This document shows positions 1,393 to 36,957 of a DNA stretch of 36,957 nt, piece after piece. The translations under genes and the position numbers were made by a program. Every line of letters starts with the position of its first letter. Position 1 is the first letter of the stretch. The stretch spans positions 1 through 36,957 of IMG/VR virus record IMGVR_UViG_3300030012_002104. One strand, 5' to 3'. Below the pieces are notes generated by a model. That model saw nothing but the letters and a program-made list of their open reading frames with translations. It ran no database searches and was not told the origin of the DNA. Origin of the DNA: a virus.

Positions 1393-2373
1393 ATGAAAAA
1401 ATATAATAAAAAATTCACTCCCAAAACTACTAATCAAATTGCTACAGAAGTTACCGAGAAGATTCTTGACTGTCTCAAAGAAGGTACTATCCCATGGAAA
1501 TCAGGAATTATCGGAGAGGGTGCGTCTATGGTTTCTTATGATGACAAACAGTACCGTGGCGTTAACCAATGGATTCTTCTCGCTACAATGATTAAAAATA
1601 AATTCAAATCTAACAAGTGGATTACCTTCAACAGATGTCGTAAGGAAGGTGGTCATGTTCTTAAAGGTCAGAAGAGTACCTCGGTAGTCTATTGGAATTT
1701 TACTTACAAAGCAGACCCTGAGTGTACCCAATGCAACAGAAAAACTACTAAACTAAAAGTGTGTGACTGTCAGGTCTGTATTCCCTTCTTAAAAACATTT
1801 GCACTGTTCAACATGGAGCAAACTTCTCTGTTCGATGAGTCTCTACACGTACCAAAACCTCAAGAGGTAGAGGATGTCGATGTCAATGTCGGTATGGCTC
1901 ATCAGCTTGTGTCAGATTGGGACTCTGTTGTTCCTATCAAGTACGGTCACAATAACTTTGCTTCTCCTTACTATGCTCCTATAGGTGATTATATTAATAT
2001 TCCCTTCGGTGATGGTGTTGCTTGGGTTAACGAGGAAGTGCAACACAAAACTACTTTTCACGAGATGATTCACTCTACAGGTCATAAGTCTCGTCTAGAT
2101 AGATTTGACGAAGCTGTTATGGACGGTATCGATGCAGGTAAGCTTCACTCAAGAGGTGAGTATTCTGCAGAGGAGCTTGTTGCAGAGATGGGTTCTCAGA
2201 TGCTTGCAGACCTGTGTAACTTTCAGCAGGAGCACATTGACGATACTTCTGCTTACATTGCTTCATGGATTAAGTGTTTAGAAGAGAATCCTAAATGGGT
2301 CATATGGGCATCAGGAAGAGCTGTTAAAGCTGTCGACATGATTCTAGATAACTCAGAGAAGGGGGTAAAATAA
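1393..2373 (+). CDS. ArdC-like anti-restriction protein: ssDNA-binding domain plus zincin-like metallopeptidase
   Basis: 326 residues. Residues about 10-105 match the ArdC-type ssDNA-binding domain (DUF1738): EGTIPWKSG near 30, YRGVNQW near 54-60, and WITFNRCRKEGGHVLKGQKS near 76-95. Residues about 160-320 match its zincin-like peptidase domain: HEMIH at 223-227 (HExxH), GHKSRLDR just after, and a downstream YSAEELVAEMG helix that likely gives the third ligand. ArdC proteins of plasmids and phages protect incoming DNA from restriction. An unusual Cys cluster (C111, C114, C124, C126, C129) is inserted between the domains and may bind zinc. The ribosome-binding site is AAAGGA, 8 bases before ATG. 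As the first rightward gene it is probably expressed early. Confidence 0.88.
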   Translation: MKKYNKKFTPKTTNQIATEVTEKILDCLKEGTIPWKSGIIGEGASMVSYDDKQYRGVNQWILLATMIKNKFKSNKWITFNRCRKEGGHVLKGQKSTSVVYWNFTYKADPECTQCNRKTTKLKVCDCQVCIPFLKTFALFNMEQTSLFDESLHVPKPQEVEDVDVNVGMAHQLVSDWDSVVPIKYGHNNFASPYYAPIGDYINIPFGDGVAWVNEEVQHKTTFHEMIHSTGHKSRLDRFDEAVMDGIDAGKLHSRGEYSAEELVAEMGSQMLADLCNFQQEHIDDTSAYIASWIKCLEENPKWVIWASGRAVKAVDMILDNSEKGVK

Positions 2374-2377
2374 AAGT

Positions 2378-2390
2378 CCCCCTATGGGGG
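2378..2390 (+). other. competing hairpin CCCCC-TAT-GGGGG in front of the ribozyme
   Basis: CCCCC (2378-2382) and GGGGG (2386-2390) can form a 5-bp hairpin with a 3-base loop. The same GGGGG is the 5' strand of ribozyme stem III, so the two folds exclude each other. A third G run, GGGGG at 2361-2365 in the last codons of the ardC-like gene, can pair with CCCCC 2378-2382 (6 bp including A2360-T2383) and would free the ribozyme strand. Confidence 0.5.
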
Positions 2391-2436
2391 TCGTATGGCG
2401 TTGGTAGCCATGCCTGATGAGATACTCGAAACCCTC
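2386..2436 (+). ncRNA. type III hammerhead ribozyme
   Basis: All conserved hammerhead core bases are present in order. Stem III 5' strand GGGGG (2386-2390) is followed by U2391 and cleavage-site C2392 (GUC). Stem I is GTATGGC (2393-2399) paired with GCCATGC (2407-2413), 7 bp with one G-U and a 7-base loop. The core CTGATGA is at 2414-2420, stem II at 2421-2427 (2 bp: G-C and A-T, loop TAC), GAAA at 2428-2431, and stem III 3' strand CCCTC at 2432-2436. It is open at stem III (type III). Predicted cleavage follows C2392. It sits in the RNA between the ardC-like gene and the next gene. The weak point is the very short stem II. Confidence 0.8.
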
Positions 2437-2441
2437 TTCAG

Positions 2442-2452
2442 AATTAACGAAA
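2442..2452 (+). promoter_or_regulatory. AATTAACGAAA leader motif, copy 2
   Basis: An exact copy of the 11-mer found at 1373-1383 and, on the - strand, at 11171-11181. Here it lies between the ribozyme and the AAGGAAA ribosome-binding site of the gene starting at 2473. Confidence 0.4.
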
Positions 2453-2472
2453 ACACAATAAGGAAAAAAAAC

Positions 2473-4827
2473 ATGAATATCGAAAAGAAAACTCAAATAA
2501 TCAAAGAAGCTTGTAAAGGTACTATCTCTAGAATAAACTTCACTAATCCTGTAGGACTATTGCCTTCAAACATTAGTGGGACTGTAGCTTTCTCTCATTC
2601 AGGTCAGCCTGCTGTCGGTAGATTTTGTTTTAGTAACAAAAAACACGAGACAACTGTAAAGGGTAAAAATTGGGACTTAAGCTCTGAGCACAAAGTTACA
2701 GCTTACATGATAGACCACTATACAGGTTTTGAGATGTATCAGTTCGGTGACAAGATGGATAAAATCATTAGAGATTCTATTCTTGAGCCACAGTCACATT
2801 GGGGCAATCAAGATATGAAGTCAGCTCTATGGTCATATAAGTTTGACGGTACTGATGCTAACGGTGATACAAGATACAAAAAAGTTCATTATCACAATAT
2901 GGATGATGTTCTATTAGATTGGGATATACCGTTGTTAACTGCATCTTTCGAGGAAAAGCAAGAGATTTTAGCACAGATGGTTCAGGACGATGACGGTAGA
3001 GGTAAACATTATCGTGTGAAATGTACTCGTAAATTTGTCGATGATAATTATTCTGCTCTAGTCTCTGACAAGCACGGTACTAAGATTACAGAAGACAGAC
3101 CTCTTACAGTTACTGTACCAATGCGTAACATAAAAATCTATGACTCTGTTATAAACGATGATGTTGTATGTACTTTTATAGAATGCAAACAGGTTATAAA
3201 AGCTAAAGAATCTAACAAAAGGTGGTCTTATGATTATTTTAATATAGCAGAAGACAGACCTCTTGTTAAAAAGTTGTTTATGCAATTCAAGCAGACTTTT
3301 CATCAGGAGTGCTGTATCGAGCAGGAAAGACTATATAAGCTTGCCTACGATAGAAGAGTTGAGATTCTTAAGACAGGTGCTATTCAGGAGCTAGTTTCTT
3401 ACTTTAACGAGTGCATCCTAGAGCACAGAGGTTTAGGCTTTGATTTGTCTCTTGATAACTCTCTTACTAAAGATAATAAGTTTACCTGTGAGTATACTAA
3501 AAAAGCTACTAGTGATTATGAAGAAGATAAAGACATCTCAATCGTCAGAAAATTAGGTGACAGATTTACAACAGAAAATTGTATCTCTGATTTAAAATTC
3601 TCTGAAGGTGCAGGATGTATCACGTCAGCTAATGGTTACTACTATAGCTCTATGTCTAATGAATCTTACGCTGAAGGTTATAATCCTAAGACTATTACTG
3701 CTGATGATATTGCTAATGCTTGGGTTAACCAAGAGTCTACTTCTACGAAGTTTAAAGTAGGACTTAGAATACAAACAGAAGAGTGTAGAGGTGGATATTA
3801 TAGAAAAGGTATCCATGTAGAAGTTGGTACATGCCTTTCTACAATAGGTTGGTGTGACTCAGCTACTGACAAAGCTATAAGCAAGAAGGGTTATGGTTTC
3901 TTCTACAAAGGTACTAGCACAAAAACTAACAGAAGTTACGATGAGCAAGGTAGATTAGCTTCTAACATTAAGACTGTTAAGAAACATATTAACGAATCTA
4001 TTGAGAGAGCTTTTAATAGTTATAATTATAGTGTCGAACGAGTTATAAGCAAGCTTGACGCTGAGAAAGCTAGACTATCTGAGGAAACTAAGAGACAGAT
4101 TAAATACAATCAGGAAGGGTCTCATTTACAAAGTCTTCTTGATAAATCTAACTGTGGTATTGTTGTAGAGAAAGACGGTGATAATTATTCTGTTAATTCA
4201 AACCAAGTAGTTCTTTACATCAGTCCTGACTTTGATGGGTTTCAAGAAGCTACAGACTACATAACTGAAGAAGATGGTTTTTATAGAGTTAAAGTTAGTC
4301 TTACATATTCAGAAGATGATGGTTATTTGCTTAATAACAAGCTTGATATTACTGCTGAAGACACAGAAGTAAACGAATATGGATATCCTATACATACTAT
4401 GGTTGTTTGTGATGCTGAGTCTCTAGCGTTTGCAATCAAGAAGTGTATCGAAGCTCGTAATAAGGTTAAAAAGGCTTTCAAAGCCTATAAAGACCTTAAT
4501 GACCAAAACTGTGAACTTAACCCTATAAAAAAGCCTGCTACAGATAAGGTGATAGTGGATGAAGCTCCTGAATGTGATGCATGCGAAGACTCTAAAGAGG
4601 ATTTATACGGAGACGATTGTTATGCTTGTGCTACTCAGAGACATGGATGTGAGCACGATGATTACAATGAGAAACCTAGTAAATCAGGTGGTATGTCTGA
4701 CTATGCTTTAGAGCAAGAGCAGGATGTAGATGCTTGTTATGATTGTGGTGGTGATGGAAACAAGCCACAACCTGAAGGCTATACGCTTCAATGTGGTACG
4801 TGTAAGGGCGATGGTTACGCTTGCTAA
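2473..4827 (+). CDS. large unrecognised early protein with C-terminal zinc-finger-like tail
   Basis: 784 residues with no family I recognise over most of the length. The last ~90 residues are Cys-rich: CDAC and CYAC pairs, then CYDCGGDG and CGTCKGDGYAC, a CxxCxGxG repeat like the DnaJ zinc-binding domain. A charged, probably helical or coiled segment lies about 160-260 residues before the C-terminus. An upstream in-frame ATG (2395) would add 26 residues, but it lies inside ribozyme stem I and has no ribosome-binding site, whereas ATG 2473 follows AAGGAAA. It is co-directional with the ardC-like gene and ends just before a strong terminator. A counter-defence or host-takeover role is a guess from position. 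Confidence 0.8.
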   Translation: MNIEKKTQIIKEACKGTISRINFTNPVGLLPSNISGTVAFSHSGQPAVGRFCFSNKKHETTVKGKNWDLSSEHKVTAYMIDHYTGFEMYQFGDKMDKIIRDSILEPQSHWGNQDMKSALWSYKFDGTDANGDTRYKKVHYHNMDDVLLDWDIPLLTASFEEKQEILAQMVQDDDGRGKHYRVKCTRKFVDDNYSALVSDKHGTKITEDRPLTVTVPMRNIKIYDSVINDDVVCTFIECKQVIKAKESNKRWSYDYFNIAEDRPLVKKLFMQFKQTFHQECCIEQERLYKLAYDRRVEILKTGAIQELVSYFNECILEHRGLGFDLSLDNSLTKDNKFTCEYTKKATSDYEEDKDISIVRKLGDRFTTENCISDLKFSEGAGCITSANGYYYSSMSNESYAEGYNPKTITADDIANAWVNQESTSTKFKVGLRIQTEECRGGYYRKGIHVEVGTCLSTIGWCDSATDKAISKKGYGFFYKGTSTKTNRSYDEQGRLASNIKTVKKHINESIERAFNSYNYSVERVISKLDAEKARLSEETKRQIKYNQEGSHLQSLLDKSNCGIVVEKDGDNYSVNSNQVVLYISPDFDGFQEATDYITEEDGFYRVKVSLTYSEDDGYLLNNKLDITAEDTEVNEYGYPIHTMVVCDAESLAFAIKKCIEARNKVKKAFKAYKDLNDQNCELNPIKKPATDKVIVDEAPECDACEDSKEDLYGDDCYACATQRHGCEHDDYNEKPSKSGGMSDYALEQEQDVDACYDCGGDGNKPQPEGYTLQCGTCKGDGYAC

Positions 4828-4851
4828 TACTAAACCTTAGGTAAATAAAGA

Positions 4852-4887
4852 AACCCTCTTAAATTAGCGTTTAAGGGGGTTTTTTTT
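4852..4887. terminator. strong, probably bidirectional terminator between the convergent units
   Basis: AACCCTCTTAAA (4852-4863) pairs with TTTAAGGGGGTT (4870-4881), 12 bp with one G-T and a 6-base loop (TTAGCG), followed by T4880-4887. It ends the rightward unit 25 bases after its last stop codon. Its T tract overlaps the stop of the last leftward gene (4886). In the - direction the stem is followed by TTTCTTTATTT, so it can plausibly stop leftward transcripts too. Confidence 0.85.
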
Positions 4888-5077
4888 ATCTGTGAGTTAG
4901 GTTACCAAGTATGTACTGATATATCCACCAACATCTACCGTTATCTGAGTAATCTAGTGCTACTTGTTTAGCTAGCTTGTAAGGGTCTTTTATATGTCTA
5001 TACTCTTCTCTTACTCTTGGTAAGTGTTTTACATTCCTATCACTAAACTTTGGTATCTTATAATATTTATATCCCAT
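4886..5077 (-). CDS. small hypothetical protein, last gene of the leftward unit
   Basis: 63 residues rich in Tyr, Lys and Arg, with no recognised family. Its start (ATG 5077) overlaps the end of the upstream nuclease-like gene by 11 bases, and its TAA stop is embedded in the shared terminator. The mix of aromatic and basic residues (EEYRHIKDPYKLAKQV and CWWIYQYILG) suggests a compact folded protein, not a translation artefact. Function unknown. Confidence 0.6.
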   Translation of the reverse strand: MGYKYYKIPKFSDRNVKHLPRVREEYRHIKDPYKLAKQVALDYSDNGRCWWIYQYILGNLTHR

Positions 5078-5492
5078 CTAATCTTTCTAATGCTTTTATT
5101 AGTGTGTATTCTTTGAAGTGTTCTTTGCTTAAGTTAATCTTGTATGAGTTAACTATATCCACCACAGGCACAAAAGCTACCTTCAAATATTCAGGCGATA
5201 CAAATGCATACATATCGATTTCAGTATCTTTGTATCTATGGTCTATACTTTTTTTACTTTTATAGTTCATAGACCTACGCCTGAGCTGAAACGTTAAGCT
5301 TGGGTTCTTTTTTGATTTATCTTTATACATTGATGTCTTAACCTGAATCTTATATAACTTATTATTATATTCTATAAGTACATCAAACTTTCGTTGTCCA
5401 CCTATCTTGTACGCATCAAATCCCTGCATCAAACAAACAAAACAAGTAAAGTGCTCACCTGCGTGTCCAATCTTAAGACTGTTTTTTTGCAC
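5067..5492 (-). CDS. PD-(D/E)XK nuclease-like protein
   Basis: 141 residues starting at GTG 5492. The N-terminal half shows the order of the PD-(D/E)XK fold: E13 in GHAGEHF, D37 in RKFDVLI and Q50-x-K52 in YKIQVKTS. This resembles the small group-I-intron-endonuclease-like or PDDEXK_5 branch, which often carries Q in place of E before the lysine. Such phage proteins cut or resolve DNA, and a Holliday-junction or branched-DNA role would fit the recombination genes nearby. It overlaps the upstream gene by 20 bases and the downstream one by 11. The fold is confident from the motif, the substrate is not. Confidence 0.65.
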   Translation of the reverse strand: MQKNSLKIGHAGEHFTCFVCLMQGFDAYKIGGQRKFDVLIEYNNKLYKIQVKTSMYKDKSKKNPSLTFQLRRRSMNYKSKKSIDHRYKDTEIDMYAFVSPEYLKVAFVPVVDIVNSYKINLSKEHFKEYTLIKALERLDGI

Positions 5493-5685
5493 TTATAACT
5501 TTCTTTGCAGTTTCATAACTTACTATAAATTTATCTACAATTAATAATATTTTATTATCATAGTTTATGTTAGCATGTTGCAGTGCGTCAAAGTAAGCTC
5601 TTATCTCTGCATCCCTGATTGCAGTGTCGATGTTATTTATAAGCCTTATTGGGTCAACGTATTTAGCTTTCATTTGCATCTTCAA
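5473..5685 (-). CDS. small hypothetical protein
   Basis: 70 residues starting at ATG 5685 (MKMQMKAKYV), with 22 bases of overlap with the end of the NinG-like gene and 20 bases with the nuclease-like gene downstream. It is mostly helical in appearance, with several Asp/Ile/Ala repeats and a basic end (KKVISAKKQS). No domain is recognised. The tight overlaps on both sides support it as a real gene of the recombination block. Confidence 0.55.
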   Translation of the reverse strand: MKMQMKAKYVDPIRLINNIDTAIRDAEIRAYFDALQHANINYDNKILLIVDKFIVSYETAKKVISAKKQS

Positions 5686-6046
5686 GTTCCTTTAGTTTTT
5701 TTTTATAAACCTCTATGAGTTCTTCAATCTCATAATCGTAATACTTTCTAGGTCTTTTAAATGTAGAATACAGCTCATCAAAAACTTCCTGACCGTGTTT
5801 CTTGATAAACCATTGAGTATATGGAACAAAGTCCATGGTGTGTTTAAAGTTACAGGGATAACATTGTTGGTTGCAATTAAGCTCATCCCAACGTGTAGCG
5901 TAGTGTCGTCTAGAGAATAAATGCCCATTGTTCGCTTGGTCAGGCGAACCACATATCACGCAATACTTATCTCTAGCTCTTATATATTTAGAAAAAATAG
6001 CGTCTAATTTTTTTATAAGAGTTTTTCTAGAAGGCTTTCTAGGCAT
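5663..6046 (-). CDS. NinG/Rap-like HNH-type recombination protein
   Basis: 127 residues. A Cys4-type HNH-like arrangement is clear: C29-x2-C32 (YCVICG), H42 in NNGHLFSRRHYATRW, then DELN and C62-x2-C65 (CYPCN). The order YCVxCG...GHxFSRRHxAxRWDELNCxxQCxxCN is the signature of the lambda NinG (Rap) family, which binds or cleaves branched recombination intermediates. The usual long N-terminal extension is short here, and the C-terminal 40 residues are charged and probably coiled. The ribosome-binding site is AGGAGA just upstream. The gene is preceded by a long inverted repeat (6062-6147). Confidence 0.8.
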   Translation of the reverse strand: MPRKPSRKTLIKKLDAIFSKYIRARDKYCVICGSPDQANNGHLFSRRHYATRWDELNCNQQCYPCNFKHTMDFVPYTQWFIKKHGQEVFDELYSTFKRPRKYYDYEIEELIEVYKKKLKELEDANES

Positions 6047-7788: not shown

Positions 7789-8518
7789 ATGTCTTTAATG
7801 TAAATTTCTTATTTAAGTTACTTTTTATTCTAGGTTTTGGGTTATAGTGATAGTATAAGTTAACTGCACTCTCCCATACATCAGGAACTATCTTAAACTC
7901 TTTTAGGTTAGCTTTAGCTGTGTGCTCTCTAATCCATCCTTTTTTGCAATGCAACGCACCTATACGTTTTATTGGTGTGTCAGGATGGTAATCATTATAA
8001 AGAATAGAGTATGCTGTTAGCTGTAGGTTGACCTGCTCTGATAATTGATTTGAGGTTTTAAAATCTATCAACCATCGTTCCCACTCATTAGTCTTTTCAT
8101 TTAATATGTCACATACTAAATCAGCAGTTCCACACCACTTTCTTTTTTCATTATAAAGATGCACCTCTGTCTTTACCATTTTTTTAGGCACTCCATCATT
8201 CCACCATTCAGCAAAAGATATAAGAGCTTTAATCATACCTCGATTAAGTTTCACCTTTTCACCTCTTATATAATATTCTTTCTCATCAGTAAGGTCAATT
8301 TCCTCACCATTTAAAAGTCTTTCTATGATGTCATGAGTTATGTTACCAAGCACTATAGACTTTTTAAGCTCTACATCTGCCTTGTAACCGTTTTTAATTT
8401 TCCATTCTACTAGATATGGTTTATTAACGATACCAAGTATAGTGGTAACCGAAGCCACTTGGTGGGTATCAGAAACCTGTACCCACCTACCGTTAGAAGT
8501 TTTTAAATATTCGTACAC
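7781..8518 (-). CDS. RecB/Cas4-like PD-(D/E)XK exonuclease
   Basis: 245 residues, with GTG start (8518-8516) overlapping the TAG stop of the annealing-protein gene and AAGGGG 10 bases upstream. Motifs of the RecB nuclease family (PDDEXK_1) appear in order: H62 in LGNITHDIIER, D133 in CGTADLVCD, D152-x-K154 in WLIDFKTS, and Q166 and Y170 in NLQLTAYSIL. It probably degrades one DNA strand from ends to make substrate for the annealing protein encoded directly upstream, like lambda Exo-Beta or RecE-RecT pairs. Confidence 0.85.
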   Translation of the reverse strand: MYEYLKTSNGRWVQVSDTHQVASVTTILGIVNKPYLVEWKIKNGYKADVELKKSIVLGNITHDIIERLLNGEEIDLTDEKEYYIRGEKVKLNRGMIKALISFAEWWNDGVPKKMVKTEVHLYNEKRKWCGTADLVCDILNEKTNEWERWLIDFKTSNQLSEQVNLQLTAYSILYNDYHPDTPIKRIGALHCKKGWIREHTAKANLKEFKIVPDVWESAVNLYYHYNPKPRIKSNLNKKFTLKTYE

Positions 8519-9153
8519 TATTTTGACCCCTTATTTTTTTTAGCTTGTTCACTTCTATATTCAAACTCTTTTTCAATCAACTTCAACGCTTCTTCGTCTT
8601 TTATTAATTTACTGTTCTTAAACCAATAGATTACATCGTCTCTGCTTACATTCTTTATCTTAACATCTAGAGGTGAGAACTTCTTTTCACGCCAAGCAGG
8701 TGAGGCTGAAGGGGGTGAATCTTCGGAAACCTCACCGTTAGATTTACTTGGCTTCGAGTGTGTAGGTTCTTCAAAACTCTTATCTACTTGGTTTGAAAAA
8801 TCATCTTCAGACATGATACCATGTTTAGATGCACCAATTAATCTTAATACCACTCTACCTATTCCACGCTTCTCAGCCATACACCCAAAGTATTTATTGC
8901 CTTTACAATTGACTGAGTCTGCTTCTCCTATAGAAGACATCCTTAAATCACCCATAGACATAGTAATTAAAAATCTTACAAAGTCTCTTTCTGAGTTTAG
9001 TATCTGCACTGACTCTAGCAAGATACCTTTAGTGTCTGCTATTTTTTCTATAGCTTCTTTTTTCATAATCCATTTTTTTGATTGCTGATGTAAATAATAA
9101 TCATCTTTTGTTAATCCACATTCTTTAGCAACTTTTTTTATTATTTCTGACAT
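8518..9153 (-). CDS. Rad52-like single-strand annealing protein
   Basis: 211 residues starting at ATG 9153 with AAGGGGG as ribosome-binding site. Residues 76-108 carry the conserved segment of phage annealing proteins (Rad52/ERF/Sak-like): GEADS, then YFGCMAEKRGIGRVVLRLIG, matching the usual G-E-A/S...MAEKRAxDRVxLxxxG pattern. Residues about 120-155 are a disordered Ser/Pro/Glu-rich linker, followed by a short charged C-terminal domain (about 160-205). It would anneal complementary strands during phage recombination, with the RecB-like nuclease one base downstream as partner. The exact subfamily cannot be fixed by eye. Confidence 0.75.
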   Translation of the reverse strand: MSEIIKKVAKECGLTKDDYYLHQQSKKWIMKKEAIEKIADTKGILLESVQILNSERDFVRFLITMSMGDLRMSSIGEADSVNCKGNKYFGCMAEKRGIGRVVLRLIGASKHGIMSEDDFSNQVDKSFEEPTHSKPSKSNGEVSEDSPPSASPAWREKKFSPLDVKIKNVSRDDVIYWFKNSKLIKDEEALKLIEKEFEYRSEQAKKNKGSK

Positions 9154-9259
9154 GCTTCCCCCTTCTTTTTATTATTATTTTACCACTTGCTATATCCATC
9201 ATCATCTTTTGGATATCATCATATGGCTTTACTATTAGATTTCGTTTATTCTTTTTCAT
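9125..9259 (-). CDS. small basic hypothetical protein
   Basis: 44 residues from ATG 9259 (MKKNKRNLIVKPYDDIQKMM) to TAA 9125. It overlaps the end of the upstream 61-residue gene and the first 29 bases of the annealing-protein gene. Strongly basic, no recognised family. It fills an otherwise unexplained 90-base gap in a region where genes are packed end to end, which supports it, although no clear ribosome-binding site is seen. Confidence 0.5.
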   Translation of the reverse strand: MKKNKRNLIVKPYDDIQKMMMDIASGKIIIKRRGKHVRNNKKSC

Positions 9260-9431
9260 TTATTATTTTCTCCAATTGACCTATTCTACTACATTTTGTT
9301 TGCAAATCTTTTTGCAATTCATTTACTTGAAACTTTAAGTCTTCTAAATCTTCAAATAACAATCTTATGTATTTATAAAACTGCTCTTCTTTCGCTACTT
9401 TGCAGTACATTGGGTTGTCTTTTAATTCCAT
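9246..9431 (-). CDS. small coiled-coil protein
   Basis: 61 residues. From about residue 18 to the end the sequence has a heptad pattern of Leu/Val/Ile (YIRLLFEDLEDLKFQVNELQ, then LQTK, IGQLEKIINEKE), so it is almost certainly an oligomeric coiled coil. It overlaps the last 59 bases of the replisome-organizer gene. Placed between replication and recombination genes, it could be an adaptor, but no function is recognisable. Confidence 0.6.
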   Translation of the reverse strand: MELKDNPMYCKVAKEEQFYKYIRLLFEDLEDLKFQVNELQKDLQTKCSRIGQLEKIINEKE

Positions 9432-10203
9432 TATTTACCTTTTTTTTTGCGTTCAACTTTACCTTACAGCATGGACTATCTTCTCTCAAAGTCCACTGTG
9501 TATGAAATGAGCTATCATTACACTTAGAGCAATACGCTATATAGTGACCTGTTGTACTCATCTTATAATCTTTTAAATCTATCTTTTCTTTTTTAGGTAC
9601 TTGCTTTACTATCTCATCTTCCCATCTTTTCTGCTTTAGATATGTGCTAGCATGAGGTATGTATTGTTTTTCTCTGTCAGCATAAGCAGACTTACAATGG
9701 TTCATATCTATTTCTTTAATAATAGTATCATAGTTTTTTAACCAATAAGCAAGAGCAGGTGCTTTCCCTGATTTTCTAGGATAACCTGAATACCAAAAAT
9801 CAAAATCTTTTTTCTTCTTTGCTATATCTACTTTATTATTGGTAGAAGGTTTTTTCACTAGGGTATGGAAACTATTGTCTATACCCCCCACGTCACTTTG
9901 TTCCATACTGTTTTTCATTGCATTTAACATAACGTTGTTTATATAAAGAAATCTGTTTTTAATTTCTTTTGTTTTGTTAACGTAATTATAGCCAACAGTG
10001 ATATACCCTTTAGATTGCAAGCTTGATACAATACTAGATACTCTCCTAGTGCTAATATTAAACAGCTTAGATATGTGTTTGTTGGAGGCGTAGAAGGTCT
10101 TCTCTTGGTTATCATGAAAACCTTCTACATATGAAAAAAGTAATTTTTCCTGCAAGGTTAAATCATTGTTATACATTACATAATCATGAACTACAAAATG
10201 CAT
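9373..10203 (-). CDS. O-like replisome organizer / replication initiator
   Basis: 276 residues. Residues about 14-72 form a winged helix-turn-helix of the HTH_36 type (LTLQEKLLFSYVEGF, then YASNKHISKLFNISTRRVSS and SKGYI). Residues 133-197 hold the motif pair seen in phage replication-O and helicase-loader proteins: FWYSGYPRKSGKAPALAYW and HASTYLKQKRWEDE. A third part has Cys/His residues (H220, C225, C228, C245, C246) that may bind zinc. With no phage polymerase or helicase gene in sight, this protein probably melts the origin and brings in host DnaB. The origin could lie within this gene, as in lambda, but no iterons were noticed. Confidence 0.8.
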   Translation of the reverse strand: MHFVVHDYVMYNNDLTLQEKLLFSYVEGFHDNQEKTFYASNKHISKLFNISTRRVSSIVSSLQSKGYITVGYNYVNKTKEIKNRFLYINNVMLNAMKNSMEQSDVGGIDNSFHTLVKKPSTNNKVDIAKKKKDFDFWYSGYPRKSGKAPALAYWLKNYDTIIKEIDMNHCKSAYADREKQYIPHASTYLKQKRWEDEIVKQVPKKEKIDLKDYKMSTTGHYIAYCSKCNDSSFHTQWTLREDSPCCKVKLNAKKKVNNGIKRQPNVLQSSERRAVL

Positions 10204-10625
10204 ATTGACATCCCTATAACTTTGTTAGGATTGATTAATAACTCATCTTCATTTTTTTCATTAAAATAAGCTATGACGTTTTCTTTTAATACTTTGCCTG
10301 TAAGTATACACTTGTTTTTAGACTCAAATCTTTCAGCAAACCACTCTGCAGTTTTAAATGATTTAGTCCAATGTATACCATGCCCAAACTTGTCGAAGTC
10401 TAATTCTTCTTCTGATGCGATACCTCTATATATCTCTATCACATCAGGCAACGCATGAAATTCTTCAAGCTCATCGTCATTCATCATTAAACATGGGTCT
10501 CCACTTTTTTCCATCAACAGCATTAGCTTGTCTTGACCTACTGTATCCAATAAACCTTCTTCTGTCTCTGTTAACAAGGTTCTTATAAAATCCCATTTTT
10601 CTTTATCGCCTTTAAATTCTATCAT
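10191..10625 (-). CDS. small ADP-ribosyltransferase-like protein
   Basis: 144 residues. The C-terminal two thirds show the order of the R-S-E class of mono-ADP-ribosyltransferases: R67 in EIYRG, then GHGIHWTKSFKTAEWFAERF (S89 in the W-T-x-S strand, with the typical A-x-x-FA helix), and E126-D-E128 in NEDELLIN as the candidate ExE catalytic site. Such phage enzymes modify host proteins such as RNA polymerase or ribosomal factors. The first 60 residues are acidic and unrecognised. It overlaps the replication gene by 13 bases, and an AbrB-like gene lies directly upstream. Assignment rests on motif order only. Confidence 0.65.
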   Translation of the reverse strand: MIEFKGDKEKWDFIRTLLTETEEGLLDTVGQDKLMLLMEKSGDPCLMMNDDELEEFHALPDVIEIYRGIASEEELDFDKFGHGIHWTKSFKTAEWFAERFESKNKCILTGKVLKENVIAYFNEKNEDELLINPNKVIGMSICIL

Positions 10626-10793
10626 CTATTTATCTCCAAACTCTAAACGCAAACCACTAGAGTTATAAATTGATGTTAATGATACGACTGTGCCCTTTTT
10701 AATTTTATTAGCATCCAAAAAAGTCTTAGGCAGGGTAATCCTGCCTTTGTCATCGACTTTTAATCTAGCTATTCTCAACATAGGTGTCTTCAT
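10626..10793 (-). CDS. AbrB/SpoVT-like small DNA-binding protein
   Basis: 55 residues from ATG 10793 (ATGA overlap with the upstream stop) to TAG 10626. Residues about 8-40 read ARLKVDDKGRITLPKTFL, then a K/G turn and VVSL, closely matching the swapped-hairpin AbrB domain (V-D-x-x-G-R-I-x-L-P-K-x-x). AbrB domains are dimeric DNA-binding folds used by transition-state regulators and antitoxins. No toxin-like partner is next to it except the ADP-ribosyltransferase-like gene directly downstream, which is notable. It may regulate the phage control regions. Confidence 0.7.
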   Translation of the reverse strand: MKTPMLRIARLKVDDKGRITLPKTFLDANKIKKGTVVSLTSIYNSSGLRLEFGDK

Positions 10794-11158
10794 CTTCTAC
10801 CACCTTTCTGCATTACTTCTTTATAGTTCTTACAAACATCTGTAACCCATTTCATTTTAAATACACACTTAGTTCCCCAAGGTCTATATAGATGCTGTAG
10901 TTTTTTAGATGATGTAACTTTGTAATAAAGAGTAGACTCTAACATCTTGATTCTTCTCTTTAAATAAAAGGCATCATGATTAGTAGTTCTTTTTTTGGTT
11001 GGCTTTTCTAGGTTAGATTTGTCGCTACTGATTTGTTTGTTACGCATATAATCAACAGTTCTTTTATCTTCACCACGATAATATGCAGATATAAACCAAG
11101 GCTTATTGCCTAACGCAATATAATTGCCTACTGCTATATCTCTTTTTTTGTATTTCAT
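10790..11158 (-). CDS. basic hypothetical protein, first gene of the DNA-metabolism block
   Basis: 122 residues from ATG 11158; a GTG 6 bases earlier is less likely because GGGGT lies close before the ATG. Very basic, with runs such as KPTKKRTTNHDAFYLKRRIK. The C-terminal region has two Cys and several aromatics (YRPWGTKCVFKMKWVTDVCK). No family recognised; DNA binding is plausible. It is preceded by a non-coding gap holding motif AATTAACGAAA and a candidate promoter, so it may be the first gene of a separate early transcript. Confidence 0.6.
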   Translation of the reverse strand: MKYKKRDIAVGNYIALGNKPWFISAYYRGEDKRTVDYMRNKQISSDKSNLEKPTKKRTTNHDAFYLKRRIKMLESTLYYKVTSSKKLQHLYRPWGTKCVFKMKWVTDVCKNYKEVMQKGGRR

Positions 11159-11170
11159 ATTCACCCCGTT

Positions 11171-11181
11171 TTTCGTTAATT
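11171..11181 (-). promoter_or_regulatory. AATTAACGAAA leader motif, copy 3
   Basis: Read on the - strand this is an exact copy of the motif at 1373-1383 and 2442-2452. As in the other copies, it points towards the downstream gene and lies 12 bases before its ATG (11158), next to the ribosome-binding site. Confidence 0.4.
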
Positions 11182-11200
11182 GATTTCGTATGACAAATAG

Positions 11201-11229
11201 AATTTACAAAATTCCTAGCACAATTACAA
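11201..11229 (-). promoter_or_regulatory. candidate internal promoter of the leftward unit
   Basis: On the - strand, TTGTAA (11229-11224) and TAAATT (11206-11201) are 17 bases apart and each match 4 of 6 bases of the -35 and -10 consensus. The spacer contains AGGAATTTTG, part of an 11-mer also found in the main control region (1221-1231). The 97-base gap 11159-11255 is one of the few non-coding gaps in the leftward unit, which supports a promoter for the DNA-metabolism genes. Confidence 0.4.
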
Positions 11230-11255
11230 CAAATTTTTTTTGTCGAAGAGAAAAT

Positions 11256-11447
11256 CTATTTTTTCAAAACATCTTCTAGCACATCTACAACTGAATCATA
11301 TATTGCAGATAATATTTTAGCTTCTGTATCTTCTCCTATAATAGGGATGTTTAAATTTTTATTCCACTTAGCTACAACTTTTTCTTTAGTATCTTCGTTG
11401 TTTATTTTTTCTATTGCCCAATTTGCTATCTGTTCTTTTAGCTTCAT
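11256..11447 (-). CDS. small hypothetical protein
   Basis: 63 residues starting at ATG 11447 with a strong AAAAGGAGAAAG ribosome-binding site. It looks like an all-helical protein: a basic/amphipathic N-terminal helix (EQIANWAIEKI), a central loop NLNIPIIGEDTEAKI, and an acidic C-terminal helix (VVDVLEDVLKK). No family recognised. It is the last gene before the 97-base gap, in a cluster of small genes next to the holin-like pair. Confidence 0.65.
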   Translation of the reverse strand: MKLKEQIANWAIEKINNEDTKEKVVAKWNKNLNIPIIGEDTEAKILSAIYDSVVDVLEDVLKK

Positions 11448-11544
11448 CTTTCTCCTTTTGTAGTTCTTTAGCTATTCGTTTCATTTCATATTTTCTCTGA
11501 AATGATGATAAACTCATTAAGTATTCCCAATCTATTTTTGACAT
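11386..11544 (-). CDS. possible small charged protein overlapping the next gene
   Basis: A 52-residue frame from ATG 11544 to TAA 11386. It starts MSKIDWEYLMSLSSFQRKYE and continues as a Lys/Glu-rich helix. Its last 62 bases overlap the following gene in another frame. The start overlaps the end of the upstream small frame (stop 11532) and has only a weak ribosome-binding site (AGGTG). The composition is protein-like, but the long overlap keeps confidence low. Confidence 0.45.
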   Translation of the reverse strand: MSKIDWEYLMSLSSFQRKYEMKRIAKELQKEKDEAKRTDSKLGNRKNKQRRY

Positions 11545-11699
11545 GTGCACCTACATTTAAATTCTTTTTTTGGATGTGAATCTTTTTCTAATTTTAATAT
11601 TCTTTGCTCGTGATTACTAGCAATCTTTTTGTCAGGAGCTTTTTCAATAGCTTTTATTACTGCTTTAATAATACCTTTTATAACCATAGCTTGTATCAT
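11532..11699 (-). CDS. small basic protein with Cys-rich C-terminus
   Basis: 55 residues from ATG 11699, which shares ATGA with the XhlA-like gene stop, to TAG 11532. The N-terminal half is an amphipathic basic helix (MIQAMVIKGIIKAVIKAIEK). The C-terminus reads FKCRCTCQK with three Cys in five residues. No lipobox or clear transmembrane span was seen, although the N-terminal helix could lie on a membrane. Position directly after two holin-like genes makes a lysis-associated role possible, but this is not shown. Confidence 0.55.
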   Translation of the reverse strand: MIQAMVIKGIIKAVIKAIEKAPDKKIASNHEQRILKLEKDSHPKKEFKCRCTCQK

Positions 11700-11908
11700 T
11701 TAAACACTCCTATTAAAGTTATACTTATACCTATAATAAAAGATACTGTTGTTCCTATTGCTATAATTTTACTTATATTGTTTTCAGCTTTGTTTAGTCT
11801 TCCATTTACTTTTTCTAGATGATGAAAGTTTGCATCTACTTTTTCTTTTATATAATTAAGGTGTGTCATAACCTCACCTCTATATTCATTAGTATTTTTT
11901 GTTTTCAT
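11696..11908 (-). CDS. XhlA-like small membrane protein (holin-associated)
   Basis: 70 residues from ATG 11908 with GGAGAG upstream. A coiled-coil part (about 12-46: VMTHLNYIKEKVDANFHHLE and on) is followed by a single C-terminal transmembrane helix, IIAIGTTVSFIIGISITLIG, at about 48-68. This layout is that of the haemolysin XhlA family, which works with holins in phage lysis. It overlaps the preceding coiled-coil membrane gene by 20 bases. Its topology mirrors that neighbour (N-terminal anchor there, C-terminal anchor here), so they may interact. Confidence 0.65.
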   Translation of the reverse strand: MKTKNTNEYRGEVMTHLNYIKEKVDANFHHLEKVNGRLNKAENNISKIIAIGTTVSFIIGISITLIGVFK

Positions 11909-12197
11909 TTCTCTCCTGCATTCTTAAAAATTTATCTCTCAAACCATTGCCTGATAATTTAGCTATGACCTCTACTAAGGTTTTATAAGAGTTCTCAATA
12001 CCTTTTTGCTCTAATTGCATTTTCTTTTGTTGGTCTATTAGCTTGACTAAAATTCCTTCTACTCTTGTAAATGATTCTCTTAATTCTGCAGTCAATTGGT
12101 CTTGAATATATTTATTTTGTTTTTGAATAAACATCCAAAAAGCCACAGCAACTACAAGTGGAACGCCATAGGTCTCAAGTATAACTAGCCAATCCAT
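11889..12197 (-). CDS. holin-like membrane protein with coiled coil
   Basis: 102 residues. Residues about 3-24 form one transmembrane helix (WLVILETYGVPLVVAVAFWMF) near the N-terminus, followed by a long coiled coil (about 35-85) and a basic tail. This layout is shared by small single-span holins such as the BhlA type. It follows directly after the 2,383-residue gene and overlaps the XhlA-like gene, at the junction between structural and DNA-metabolism genes. A holin role is inferred from topology and neighbours. Confidence 0.55.
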   Translation of the reverse strand: MDWLVILETYGVPLVVAVAFWMFIQKQNKYIQDQLTAELRESFTRVEGILVKLIDQQKKMQLEQKGIENSYKTLVEVIAKLSGNGLRDKFLRMQERNENKKY

Positions 12198-12198
12198 A

Positions 12199-15100
12199 TT
12201 AATTTCCTAAATTTATATATAGTTTATTTTGTCTCTTTAAAAATTCATTTAACATGCCTCTGTCACCATTTTTACCATAAGCATCATCATGTGATATGTC
12301 TCCATTAACCACAGCATCTTGAAGGTTTCTTCTAAATTGTTGCACATCTTCTTTATTATATAATCTAACATCTGCTTTTCTTAGCATTTCAAATACCTTG
12401 CTTGCCTTTAAGTAAGGTTTTGTTTGTAATACTCTAGTTCTTATTAAAGGAATTTCTTGAAAGTTAATAGTACCTTCATCATTTCTAACTCTAGGTAGCC
12501 TAGCATCTTTCATTAAAGATACACCTATTGCAGTATTTCTTTGTATTGTTGATAAAGCACCACCACCTAAAAAGTTTACCCATGTCTTATATGTTTCAGG
12601 ACTTACATCAAAGAAACCACCTTGATAATCGTTACCACCTGATACATCGCTTACCCATTTTGCTCCTTTAACATATATGTCAGATGTGTATTTTTTATGT
12701 TTCATAAAGTCAGGTCTTACATTCTTTGAGTATTCATATGGGTATAAATCATCACCTTTAAAATCTTTACCCTCCCCAATCATAACTAAGGGGTCTGTAA
12801 TAGTAGGTGATAAAGCCTGTATTGCTGTTCCACCACCCATAGGATTAAATGAATGGTCTGCAGAAACAAATGCTCTAGCTATTGCATCTCCAAACTTTAT
12901 TGTTCCATCCATGTAATCATAAGATATACTACCTAGTGCTTTAAACATTCCCCAACCATAAGGCATCCTTAGCTTAAAACCCATTTTGCAGTTAGGCTTC
13001 ATAAATATCATATAGTTATCTTTTTCATAAGCAGAAACTTCATCATCATAATTTTCGCATACTGCTTTGTTGTAAAATTGATTTAACATTCCTGATGCAA
13101 ACAATCCTGATGAAACTGCTACCCCTGTTGGAGTTCCAATAGCTCTTCTTCCTACATTAACAGCACCTTGTACACCTGCGTTAAAGAATAAATAAAATGA
13201 ATTTATTAATGAACTCCACTCACCTTTTCTATTAAAGTTTATAGTTAAGTCTTTTGCAACTGCAACAGCTTTAGCTTTTGATAATCCACTTTTTTTCATT
13301 CTATAATAAGTAGATAGTCTTACAGCCTGTTCTACTGTTTCGTTCATGTCCTCAATCCACTGTACAATAGCTCCAATAGTTTTTCTAGTATTTCCTCTAC
13401 TGCCTGCTAATCTAATTCTATTTTCTATCTCACTCATTTTTTCTTCTATAGATTTAGAATCAAACCATCCCATTTGACCACCTTCACGTTTGTATTCCTC
13501 ATAAAGGTTTTTCCAATCATTACCAAACATACCTGCCTTCTTATACCCTCTAGTGTTTTTATATATACCAACTAAAGCTTTTCGTGTGTCGTTAACTATT
13601 TGTAATGCAATTTTAGGATTATAATCAATATTTAGATTTGCAAATGCTGTTTGTATATCTCTCTCAAAGTTAGTTATGATAAAATCAGGATTCCATGTAG
13701 TGTAGTTTCTTCTTAAAAATGAATTAATTTTATTTAAAATAAACACACTTTTTTCTACACCGAGATTATTCATTGTAGTTACTAATGGATTTCTAACAAC
13801 CCTACCAAACTTATCTCTTACAACAGTAGAGCTGTCATTAATTTCAATTACATATTGTTTTACTTTTCCATCTTTATCTATTTCTCTAAAACCTATTTCA
13901 TTGTCAGCTAATTCTTTAGAACCTACATATTCAAAATTACCATCATCATCCCATATTGGTTTTGTTTTAACAAATGTTGGTCTTTTTATTTTCCATAACT
14001 CTGATGGGTTTTTACGTATAAGTTTAGCTAATGCTTTAACTACATTTTGTTGTTCAACTCTTTTTATTGTTTCTTGATAATCAGCCACAGCTTGAAGAAC
14101 TACGTTTCTAGCTCTATCACTTCTACCTGTAGCTGTGTGTACATCTCTTCCCTGTACATTAAAACCACTTCTTACATTTTGAATTATTCTTTGTACTGTT
14201 GATGGAGATTTAAGAGGCACATAAAAATCCCATTGACTTTTGTATTGGTCATACTGCTCTTGATTAATTAAGCCACTTTTTCTTAAAAGCTCTAGCCTAG
14301 GTGTTGTTACTTTTCTATGGAAAGTGTTTGCGATTCTTTCGAGTTTTGTTCCATCAAACTCCTCCATAATTTCAAGAGCTTCTTTGTCTGTCATTCCTGA
14401 ACCTTTTAAATTTTCACCGTTAGAACGTTCTTTAATAAGTTTGTTTCTTGATATTGCATGTTTTGCATATAGATAGTTTTCAAATTGCTCCATAGTAAAA
14501 CCACTGTTTATTACAGCCTCTATTATTTTCTCTACATCCTTACCTACTTTTTCTACTTTAAATTTAGTTTTACCCGGAAACTGTATCATTTTTAAATAGA
14601 CATCAGTGTCAGGACTTACATATTTCAATGTATCCTGTACTACTTTCATTCTATGATATTTATCTGCTAACTTTTGGAAAAAGTAATCACTAAGGGTTTC
14701 AGGCGATAGTTCTAATCTTGATTTTAAAGACTTAAGCTGATATGATGTTTTCTTTCTTATATCAATTTCATTAGCGTCAAATACTACAATACCTTTTGCT
14801 GTTGCATTTAGTCCTGCAGGCTTTACTCCTGATACAAAAGTAAGTCCATCAATTCCTGCCTTCAATAAAAATTCAGATGTTTCTTTTAGTGTGTCATTTA
14901 GGTTAACAGGTGGGTTCACGCCTTTTCTAGCAACACTTCTTTTGTAGAATACTGTAGATAGGTAAGTATATATATCTCTTGTTATAAACCTACCCATATC
15001 AGTAAAGTATTCTCCGGGCACTGCATTGTACGCTTGACCGTTACCCCATACTATATTGTCATACTCAGCCATCTCACCACTTTGCAATGTGTTATGCAGA

Positions 15101-18100
15101 TTTAAAAATACATCTAACTCAGGTTTAGTAAGATTATATTCAGCGTGCTCTAATAGTTTTATTGTTTGTTCTCTTGTAGGCGAGTCACCCCATTCTAAAT
15201 AGTCATATTCTTCAGGCTTTTTGCCTTTATGTACAACTACTTCATATACTGTGGGAGATGTGCTAGGGTTATTTACATCGTATCCTTGAAATGCATACCA
15301 CCTAGCTAGCTCATATTTATCTGTAAGGTAAGTACCCCAACCTTGCTGTCTGCCTGTACGCATTCTTTTGTCAGGGTCAAATTTTTTGATTAGTCCTGTA
15401 TCAGAACCATGAAAGCCTGTTATTTGATAAGATTTCCCTTCCCTGATAGACTTTCTAATTTCTTCACTTCTTGCTTTAGAGTCTCTAGCAACCTTAACCG
15501 GTTCTCTGTTTTCAAGACCCCTATCCTTTGTAGCTTGCTCAAGCTCCTGAGGACTTGTGGTGGTGGTAAATCTGTCATCCGTTACTCCTTTTCTTTCTTC
15601 TGCAACTGTTTTAAAACTTACTAAATCTGATGGTCTCGCACCTGCGTTAATATACAAATCTTTTTCTAAATACCAAAGCAATGCTTGTACATCCTCAGGG
15701 TTTATTGTTTCACCTGTTGGATTAAATTCTTTATTCTTTGTTAACCTAAGAGCTATGGTATTTAAAATTCTATTCATAGCACTTCTCTCTGCGTCATTAC
15801 GAGGAGCTTCAACTAGTGCAGTTTTAACTTCACCTTTTTTTGTAGTGGTTGTTGTTACAGGTGTTCCCATCCATCTATTATAAGTTCTTGTCCACCATAA
15901 ATCATATGTTGGTAATTCACTTATACCATTCATATTAAGAAAAAATGCACCTAGCTTTTTACCAAAACGTTGTGCACCATAATGTTGCTTTGTTATGGTA
16001 ACACCACCTCCTGTACCAAGCTCATTTTGAATAGTTAGTCCTACATGTTTTTCTAGCATAAATCTCATAGCACCATCAAGACCTAGCTTTTTAATAAGGT
16101 TATCTATAGCTAGTAAATTTTTCATAGCTGTTTCATATCTCAGACCACCAACTAGTTTTTGCGTACCATCTATGTCTTTATAGAATACAGCGTCAACTAA
16201 TTTTTTCTCACCTGTTTTTACCCTATTCCCTGTAACAGGGTCTGTTTTATAAACATCTGTTTCGTGTTTTTTTATTGTAAACTTTCCGGTTTCTAGGTAT
16301 TCTTCTACTAGTCCAAACGCTTGATTGTAATTTGTTCTTACTTTTTGACCGTTAGATGTTATAGCTAGTAAAAGTTTTGCAAACACGTTATGTCCTTCTG
16401 TTTGCATAGCAGGTATAGATTCTCTCATTATAGATATAGTACCTTCTACCTCTTCGTTATACCATTTCTGTGCTTCGTTTAAATTTATATTTCCTTTTGC
16501 TACAGCAGTCATAATATCTCTTAAACCTCTAAGCACACCTCTATTAACCACTTTATTCCTGTAATCTTTTGACTTTACAAGGTCAGGTGTTAATACATTT
16601 TTTTCTGCTAACTTTATAGCAATATCTTTAACAGGTATAACATCATAAGATTTATCACCTTGTCTTACGCTAAGATTGTTTACCTCACGTACATTGTTGT
16701 TAACTTTAAATTCTTTCTTACCAAATATTTCTGAATACATTGCTTCCATGTTCTCAGGTAAGTCTACAGTATCGCTAGCTTTCTTTAAAAAATCTTTAAT
16801 ATAATTTTTAGCTTCATTATAAAATTTAATTAAAGGAGAAGTCCCTATAAGACTATTGTTATCTAAAATATAATCTACACCATTCTTTTCAAAATACTCT
16901 TGTGGAGTAAGCTTAGTGTTTACTTTATTATATATATCCATATACGCTTTCATGTCAGCGTTAGACATAGTTTTAAAATGTACTCCTAAAAATTCTTCTA
17001 ATACTGTGTTTTTAGTAGCTCCTGCATATAAGGATAATAATACTTTGTTATGACCGTCTTTTGTTTTTATAACATCTGTACTACCCAAAGCCTGTGCTAT
17101 TGTAGTGTTTTCATCTAATCCTTCACCCTCTGTAAACTCTTTCCAAATCTTCTCAGCTTCTTTTCTAGAAACATTTTCATCCTTCATTATCTTTTCTATT
17201 TCAAGCTTGTCATATAAAATTTTAGCATCTTCATGTATTTTTATCATTGCAACAGCATCAAATGATTCTAGGTTAGGATTTAACTCTGTTTGTCCTATCA
17301 TAAGTTTTATAAAGTTTCCTGTGTTGCTATCTATTTTATTAGACTGTACTGCTCTATCTACTGCTCTTACTGAATTTTTTTTGTTAAATCCACGTATATA
17401 AAGTCTTTTATTGTTTCTGTCAGAATACTTAGCTACTTCTTTTGCTATAGCTCTGTTCTTTCCATTCTGCATGTAGTTAACGCTAACCCCTATACCCGGC
17501 ATTACACTAAACCCTACTAACTGTGCAGACAATTCTTCAAACGTTGGAAGCTGATATTCAAAAGACTCATCTCCTATTCCTATAGTATGGAATGCTCCCC
17601 TAGTTGTTCTACCTAGTTCTTCTTCAGCCATTTCAACTGCTACACCATGAAAACCACCTCTTTCTAGCATTTTATTAAATTGAGTTTGTTTAACTTTTGG
17701 GTTTTTCTTAGCAAATGCTTTTACAAAAGCAGTACGAAATGCTACTTCTTTTAACTGCTTGCTACCTTTTACTATACCTGCACCTGCAGATTCAGTAACG
17801 GTTTCTATTAAATTATCTAAACTTGCGTTGGCTAAAGCCTCCATAAAGCCCTGACCATCTCTTAAGATAACTGCTTTAAGTCCATCTCTGTTTTCATACT
17901 CTCCTACAGCGACTGTATCTATCATTCTCTCAGCTGTAGAGCTAGCTGTCCCTAAAATCATACCTCCGTAAACTCTACCTCTTAGGTTTCCATATACAAC
18001 CGAGCTTCCTGTTACAGCATATTGAGTCAATCTATTTTGTAAAACCTTCTGACCTTTTTTAGATAACAATCTAGTAATGCCTGCTTTCATAACTTTTTTT

Positions 18101-35743: not shown

Positions 35744-36957
35744 TTAACTCCAATTGTAAGACCAATTACCCGGCTTGTCTCTTTCTGCCCAAATCAATTC
35801 GTCTTTTTGTTTCTGTAAATATGTACGCTTCTTCTTAGGTTTAGCAGGAGCTGTTATATGGCTTAACATATATCTGCACGCATCAACTGCATGGTCTTCT
35901 AAGGTCGTATCTAAATCTTCAGGGTTCTTATCATCTCTAATCATATCCGGTATAGTTCGTGTAAGATTAGGACATGTCCCTTTTATAATATAAAATGAAG
36001 GTATTGTTCCTTCCGTAAAATGCATTAATTGAGACATATTATTCCATCCGTTAACTCTACTATTGTTTGCTTTCATTAAGCTTGGTAAATAGTCTCCTAG
36101 ACAGTCTGCTATAGAACTATCTGTATACGCACTAGTCTCAGGACTGTTCCATGACATAGGATTTCGTGCCCACATACTTGGGTCTCCAAGTGCTAGCGTA
36201 ATTCTTCTTTCAACATTTTTCTTCTGTATAAGCTCACCCCACTGTGCAGGATGCTTTTCTGTACCGTATAGTTCATCATCTATAAAGACAATCTTGTCAT
36301 CTGTTACCTGACACCATAGTGCACTAAAAGGATTAGCATATCCCCAATCAATACCCATGTAGTGATTATTGTTATACTTTCCATATCCAAGTATCTTAGC
36401 ATCCTCTTCTTCTATGACATGTATCTTTGGATTCCACTCTGTAAAGTATTGACCTGTAAAGATATTCCAATCACCTAGTAACCAAGCACTTCTTAGTGGC
36501 TCAGGTAACCCTTCTAGGTAATGTACATAGTCAGGGTCTTTAGCCATTAGCGTTGGGTTGTCATAGATAGTAGCAGGTATATACATTCTATACCTTCTAG
36601 TTATGGGGTCTCTGTATGGTTTTTTGTGTTCACCTACATCTACAAACCTCTTCTTAACCCATGCATGACCCTTACCACCCGGATTACAGTTGAGCATTAC
36701 CTTTGGTGTTAAGTCGTCTACAGTTGACCTGCACGATGATATGAGTTTTAGGTATGACTCTTCTGTAGGTATTTGGGTGGCTTCCTCTATTAAAATCTTT
36801 TGATATTCATGTCCTTGGTACTTGGTATATGAGTCTTCACTGTTCAAGTGTCCACATCTAATAGTAGCTCCTGATGGAAATCTCACCTCTGCAGGTTTAC
36901 CTACTATCTTTGCATATGGATAGAAGTCTCTTGCTCTTGATATCCAATCTGCTAAAT
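35744..36957 (-). CDS. terL: terminase large subunit, C-terminal part (gene cut by the window ends)
   Basis: Continuation of the gene that begins at 325; the frame is open through 36957. It contains the Walker B-like ILIEEATQIP (residues about 118-127 of the joined 466-residue protein) and the ATPase coupling region (PKVMLNCNPGGKGHAW). The RNase H-like nuclease starts at YMGIDWGYANPF with D266 as a metal ligand, and a later acidic site lies in TLEDHAVDACRYML near 430. With a P22-type portal and a DUF5681 partner it probably packages by the headful mechanism, matching the circularly permuted map. An internal GTG at 36886 should not be taken as the start. Confidence 0.93.
   Translation of the reverse strand, partial: LADWISRARDFYPYAKIVGKPAEVRFPSGATIRCGHLNSEDSYTKYQGHEYQKILIEEATQIPTEESYLKLISSCRSTVDDLTPKVMLNCNPGGKGHAWVKKRFVDVGEHKKPYRDPITRRYRMYIPATIYDNPTLMAKDPDYVHYLEGLPEPLRSAWLLGDWNIFTGQYFTEWNPKIHVIEEEDAKILGYGKYNNNHYMGIDWGYANPFSALWCQVTDDKIVFIDDELYGTEKHPAQWGELIQKKNVERRITLALGDPSMWARNPMSWNSPETSAYTDSSIADCLGDYLPSLMKANNSRVNGWNNMSQLMHFTEGTIPSFYIIKGTCPNLTRTIPDMIRDDKNPEDLDTTLEDHAVDACRYMLSHITAPAKPKKKRTYLQKQKDELIWAERDKPGNWSYNWS
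36820..36957. repeat. terminal redundancy, right copy
   Basis: Right-hand copy of the 138-base overlap at 1-138, with one silent difference (A36878 versus G59). It lies inside the large terminase coding sequence. Confidence 0.95.

Follow-up and report, generated by a model that had tools for sequence, protein, structure and literature searches.

A Type III Hammerhead Motif and a Hairpin at Its Predicted Cleavage Site between an ardC-Like Gene and Its Downstream Neighbor in a Viral Genome

Genomic Context of the ardC Locus

The window (the whole stretch of DNA that was analyzed, 36,957 nucleotides from an uncultured phage) contained an ardC-like antirestriction gene on the + strand (1393-2373). 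Its 326-aa product harbored ArdcN and zincin-like MPTase-PolyVal domains, with matches to Pfam PF08401 (E 3e-23) and PF18818 (E 2e-19) and to PHROG 7245 (anti-restriction protein). This upstream cistron was followed on the + strand by a second cistron (2473-4827) encoding a 784-aa protein, which carried DnaJ-like CxxCxGxG motifs at its C-terminus and had no family match in Pfam or PHROG. Relatives of the locus included the near-identical L001 and L002, as well as the diverged L005, in which ArdC was 61% identical, and L252. An ArdC fragment in L252 shared 64% identity with P0002 across 61 aa, and the 784-aa protein had a partial homologue in the same relative. L252 came from a DNA pattern, and these two homologues were recognized in it only afterwards. 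Identity to the 784-aa protein was 81% in L001, 28% in L005, and about 25%, over part of the protein, in L252. Phage DNA and protein collections queried with the 784-aa protein and with the locus gave no match, and an ArdC search of genome contigs recovered nothing closer than distant ArdC sequences from one plasmid and one MAG.

The ardC-like gene and the 784-aa gene (1393-4827) were apparently the sole gene pair on the + strand of the window. Other large ORFs were located on the - strand, and one of the proteins encoded there (12199-19350, 2383 aa) contained the large polyvalent protein domain LPD38. The first 138 bases (1-138) recurred at the other end (36820-36957) as a direct terminal repeat that differed at one position, and a terminase reading frame apparently spanned the join; the record thus appears to represent a complete genome that is either circular or terminally redundant.

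A Type III Hammerhead Motif between the Two Genes

A type III hammerhead motif was located between the two genes at 2386-2436 (+). From 5' to 3', it consisted of the stem III 5' strand GGGGGU (2386-2391), the cleavage-site base C2392, after which cleavage is predicted, the stem I 5' strand GUAUGGC (2393-2399), the loop GUUGGUA, the stem I 3' strand GCCAUGC (2407-2413), the CUGAUGA core (2414-2420), the segment GAUACUC (2421-2427), in which GA (2421-2422) can pair with UC (2426-2427) as a 2-bp stem II, the GAA core (2428-2430), and the stem III 3' strand ACCCUC (2431-2436). The type III core (CUGANGA, GAA, the A15.1-U16.1 pair, and H17) was complete, every core base lying where the preliminary description had placed it, and the 7-bp stem I and 6-bp stem III of that description, including the A-U pair adjoining the cleavage site, were also found. 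All three helices were present, with stem III open. The anatomy given in that description holds for these elements, although it missed a hairpin at 2376-2392 and a possible pairing between 2358-2366 and 2431-2439. A loose hammerhead descriptor matched once in the window and twice in 150 first-order Markov copies, a chance rate of about 0.013 per window. At the level of sequence, the motif is confirmed as real. The 3' part of the motif and the bases after it (GAAACCCUCUUCAGAAUUAACG, 2428-2449) resembled the 5' half of the operon terminator GAAACCCUCUUAAAUUAGCG (about 4850-4885), a resemblance that L005 did not have.

A hammerhead was also present between the same two genes in L005, as UGCGU C UCCUGA..UCAGGA CUGAUGA GUUCAAGAGAAC GAA ACGCA, and in L252 it read GCCGU C ACCUGA..UCAGGU CUGAUGA GUCCAAAAGGAC GAA ACGGU. 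Stems I, II, and III were all rewritten yet paired across the three orthologous loci (window, L005, and L252), and the compensatory changes in stems I and III that had been put forward as a check were found in both relatives. A covariance model was derived from a set of 49 viral type III hammerheads that left out the window, L001, L002, and L005. It scored the window motif at 45.6 bits (E 2.1e-12), as the sole match in the window, and gave 58.8 bits for L005 and 62.2 bits for L252; the phage PaP3 ribozyme, at 36.5 bits, scored lower than the window copy. In the alignment of the 49 hammerheads, for which MAFFT was given no structural information, 96% of cells paired vs. 64% after shuffling, and the covariation score was 0.745 vs. 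0.162. Owing to the wholesale compensatory replacement of stems in diverged loci and to the left-out covariance model, the earlier proposal of a type III hammerhead within the intercistronic RNA is strongly supported.

The ArdC relatives L011, L012, and L013 gave no match to the hammerhead model and carried other genes after ardC. An exact-pattern match in L006 was rejected by the descriptor, as it contained the core without stem I or stem III. Two further viral hammerheads were observed near genes for distant ArdC homologues on the same strand: one about 250 nt upstream, with a small ORF between (L264, 1105-1151, -), and one about 2 kb downstream (L044, 6231-6278, -).

A check against the Rfam type III model had also been suggested, a score below threshold counting against the motif. 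No match was obtained when the window was scanned at Rfam gathering cut-offs, and in a local e-value scan the sole row from the hammerhead clan was type II (15.1 bits, E 1.3), which was not significant. The window copy did not reach the curated cut-off of 48.5 bits for Hammerhead_3 (RF00008) and was absent from the listing of that family, with which it shares the core and the type III permutation. This counts against it in form only: the L005 copy, which matched Hammerhead_3 at 38.9 bits (E 1e-7), likewise fell under this cut-off, and among 28 loci (15 + 13) chosen for viral hammerhead patterns there was one hammerhead match at Rfam gathering. Since hardly any comparable viral copy passes the cut-offs, L005 being another that fails, the failure of the window copy is a matter of thresholds. 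Rfam cut-offs leave most phage hammerheads unannotated.

Short Stem II and a Proposed Loop I-Loop II Pseudoknot

Loop I of the window motif contained GGUA (2403-2406, +), which could form a pseudoknot with UACU of loop II (2423-2426). One of the four pairs would be G.U, and the fourth would use U2426, a base that can instead join A2422 as part of stem II. In L001, a G-to-A change in the loop turns the proposed G.U into A-U. Hammerheads of a short-stem-II subclass, with a 7-bp stem I and a loop I of 7-9 nt, paired loop I with loop II, and the pairs covaried across the subclass: GGUA/UACU in the window, AGUA/UACU in L001, GGUA/UACC in L028, UGGC/GCCA in L045, AGCG/CGCU in L093, UGACG/CGUCA in L128, and UGUA/UACA in L144. 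The pairing was evaluated by permutation because the MAFFT alignment of the subclass had end-gap errors. Among 12 members found by a pattern not requiring that pairing, the observed complementarity was reached in 0 of 5000 permutations. A tertiary contact between stems I and II is indicated here by covariation, not by a structure. Short stems II are common in bacterial hammerheads, with 2 bp being frequent and a single bp occurring in one case, and pseudoknots between stems I and II are known among them (PMC3088659). The preliminary description regarded the 2-bp stem II as its main caveat. The length was correct; however, it is a normal feature, and the pseudoknot plausibly compensates for the weak stem.

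Hairpins Upstream of the Cleavage Site

The hairpin in the window, GUCCCCC-UAU-GGGGGUC (2376-2392, +; core CCCCC-UAU-GGGGG, 2378-2390), ended at the cleavage site, and its 3' arm doubled as the 5' strand of stem III; the hairpin and the active fold therefore exclude each other. Equivalent hairpins, each with its end at the corresponding base, were found in L005 (GGCGCA-GAAA-UGCGUC) and L252 (GACGGC-GUUAU-GCCGUC). In all three loci, a hairpin of 6-7 bp terminated either exactly at the cleavage site or no more than 1 nt away from it, for which the joint chance was 1.4e-4 when the upstream bases were shuffled, and the ardC stop codon (2371-2373 in the window) lay 2-4 nt before the hairpin. The predicted minimum free energy structure was the hairpin conformer in each of them, and in the window the mutually exclusive helices were nearly equal in computed energy (-15.9 vs. 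-17.2 without the pseudoknot). In addition, GAAGGGGGU at the end of ardC (2358-2366, +) can pair with ACCCUCUUC (2431-2439) in an inactive fold that was computed as even more stable than the hairpin conformer. This pairing was not seen in L005, and it was set aside as a conserved switch. Since both the hairpin and this longer-range pairing are favored by the predicted energies, the ribozyme might cut slowly or only under certain conditions. The hairpin was not followed on the + strand by the U-tract of an intrinsic terminator, as UCGUAUGG comes next, and a terminator scan detected a terminator-like site at this hairpin only on the - strand (2390-2378).

A wider set was obtained by two pattern scans of viral contigs, each with at least 120 matches and with patterns that fixed the pairs adjoining the core, so that frequencies in it are not estimates; the matches listed included 162 non-redundant viral hammerheads. 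For these 162 listed copies, the 30 nt before stem III had a mean folding energy of -10.2 kcal/mol, as opposed to about -4 kcal/mol in each of the remaining upstream windows and -1.7 on the downstream side. Among the matches listed, hammerheads (-10.7) also differed from same-pattern matches without stem I (-5.4; P 3e-9). The upstream hairpin ended most commonly 5-7 nt before the cleavage site, where stem III starts, and in the majority of listed copies having one, no more than about 2 nt separated it from stem III. Since these hairpins were no stronger than the best hairpins of other intergenic gaps, their notable feature is position and not strength, and for the same reason attenuated terminators might account for them in part. 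As a general enriched class, hairpins that overlap stem III found no support overall, with 16 observed and about 18 expected among the matches listed. Overlap was favored only by the three orthologous ardC loci and by the pseudoknot subclass, in which 7 were observed vs. 2.6 expected among the matches listed after a post hoc split.

Hammerheads recurred between successive genes, at 12927, 11818, 11271, 10404, and 8492 in L156, four times in L147, and three times in L139. These arrays of 3-5 copies occupied 8492-12975 (L156), 2480-5497 (L147), and 3319-6044 (L139), and their hammerheads were mostly located behind a strong hairpin, often as GAGUGUCUUC..GACACUC. In Pseudomonas phage DL54, and by position also in PaP3 (L269, 44922-44970, -; L270, 45419-45467, -), the first leftward gene had a hammerhead in its 5' leader; the annotated start codon in DL54 overlapped the stem III 3' strand.

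Proposed Mechanism and Alternative Explanations

We propose, with a probability of about 0.6, that the type III hammerhead and the hairpin act jointly as an intercistronic mRNA-processing element. The parts of this element, their conservation, and their geometry are those described above from sequence. The ardC-like gene and the 784-aa gene would be transcribed as one RNA, and the ribozyme, made up of stems I and III, the minimal stem II, and the loop I-loop II pseudoknot, would cut it after C2392. From this anatomy and general knowledge of bacterial mRNA decay, we infer cleavage and RNA stabilization as follows. The upstream ardC mRNA would carry a 2',3'-cyclic phosphate on C2392, its last base, and the bases freed from stem III would close the hairpin at 2376-2392, leaving an almost blunt 3' end that would be a poor entry for 3' exonucleases and not easily religated. 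For other phage copies, the hairpin of the upstream product would usually retain a tail of 5-7 nt, in contrast to the nearly blunt end in the window. The downstream mRNA would start at G2393 with a 5'-OH, thereby evading decay that depends on a 5'-monophosphate. As the cut would yield a hairpin at one end and a 5'-OH at the other, the two genes could be given separate mRNAs with separate half-lives, no second promoter or terminator being needed. At the ardC loci, the hairpin would form first and compete with stem III, and cleavage may need a trigger; for this reason a ribosome at the ardC stop codon, which would cover the 5' arm of the hairpin, may license cleavage, although such coupling is speculative.

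It is unlikely, by comparison, that the hammerhead merely splits the transcript and that the hairpin, whether incidental or the weak remnant of a terminator, has no role alongside the ribozyme. All of the hammerhead evidence would also fit this explanation, as would the equal stability of the best hairpins in other intergenic gaps and the chance-level overlap with stem III over the viral copies among the matches listed. On the other hand, among those matches the hairpin was locked in position next to stem III in most copies having one and was absent from decoys, it was kept with a different sequence in all three orthologous loci, and it had no U-tract on the + strand.

A regulated switch appears less likely still. 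The hairpin and the 2358-2366/2431-2439 pairing would then hold the ribozyme off until a signal, for example ardC translation or its loss, freed stem III, and the purpose would be control of ardC or of the gene after it and not routine processing. The near-equal energies of mutually exclusive helices, the hairpin conformer predicted at all three loci, and the stop codon just before the hairpin are consistent with this; however, in most viral hammerheads among the matches listed the hairpin adjoins stem III and does not block it, the longer-range pairing was not shared by L005, and no ligand pocket or trans-acting factor was evident. The 2-bp stem II and the stable competing folds could instead point to a decayed, inactive hammerhead, but this is very improbable given an intact core, a loop change in L001 that keeps the proposed pseudoknot pair, and a position conserved in diverged relatives. 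Finally, a chance origin of the motif as coding sequence for an 810-aa reading of the downstream protein can be dismissed: the frame from the ATG at 2395 is open through the motif, but the same ATG in L001 reaches a stop before the gene start and the corresponding stretch of L252 carries stops, so that N-terminal coding is refuted by closure of the frame in both. L005 and L252 also retain the motif with its stems rewritten, and the chance rate given above is low.

If the hairpin and the hammerhead do act together as a gene boundary, the element would be an RNA-only counterpart of a terminator. A hairpin whose position is fixed where the upstream product would end, and which is kept despite sequence replacement, points to the formation of mRNA 3' ends. 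An extension beyond this locus is tentative and, in our estimate, doubtful: many dsDNA phages may use a hairpin and a type III hammerhead as a self-processing boundary between genes that provides protected mRNA 3' ends without terminating transcription, and in the ardC family the hairpin would block stem III, with cleavage gated by the ribosome finishing ardC.

Comparison with Known Systems

The literature searched, in which subscription papers and preprints were partly covered so that priority is uncertain, contained no description of the position-locked hairpin or of its overlapping form at ardC loci. Intrinsic terminators and protective 3' stem-loops place a stable hairpin at the 3' end of bacterial mRNAs. 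The element in the window resembles them in this respect; it differs in that a ribozyme, and not a stop of transcription, would generate the 3' end, which would bear a 2',3'-cyclic phosphate, and in that its hairpin has no U-tract on the + strand. ArdC and ArdA, the products of ardC and ardA, belong to unrelated families.

That hammerheads occur in some phage genomes, as had been noted for this locus, agrees with Perreault et al. (2011; PMC3088659), who covered an array at ardA in Agrobacterium and the copy in PaP3. According to that study, active tandem hammerheads flank ardA in Agrobacterium and cleave in vitro and in E. coli, the PaP3 ribozyme was reported to be active, and bacterial and phage hammerheads were suggested in 2011 to process long phage transcripts. 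Their purpose has been an open question since 2010-2011 (PMC3088659; PMC6155905), and the function of prokaryotic hammerheads was still called open in a 2017 review (PMC6155905). With the pairing of hairpin and hammerhead, simple constructs would suffice to address this question by experiment. The window element is a further member of the phage hammerheads already known beside antirestriction genes: the phage and prophage hammerheads of types I, II, and III in Perreault et al. likewise lie between phage genes, some of them next to antirestriction genes, and share short stems II and pseudoknots between stems I and II. The window copy differs from the Agrobacterium array and PaP3 described there (PMC3088659) in lying beside ardC and not ardA and in occurring once per genome, and it carries a hairpin that reaches the cleavage site and overlaps stem III, a feature that the available text does not mention for its hammerheads.
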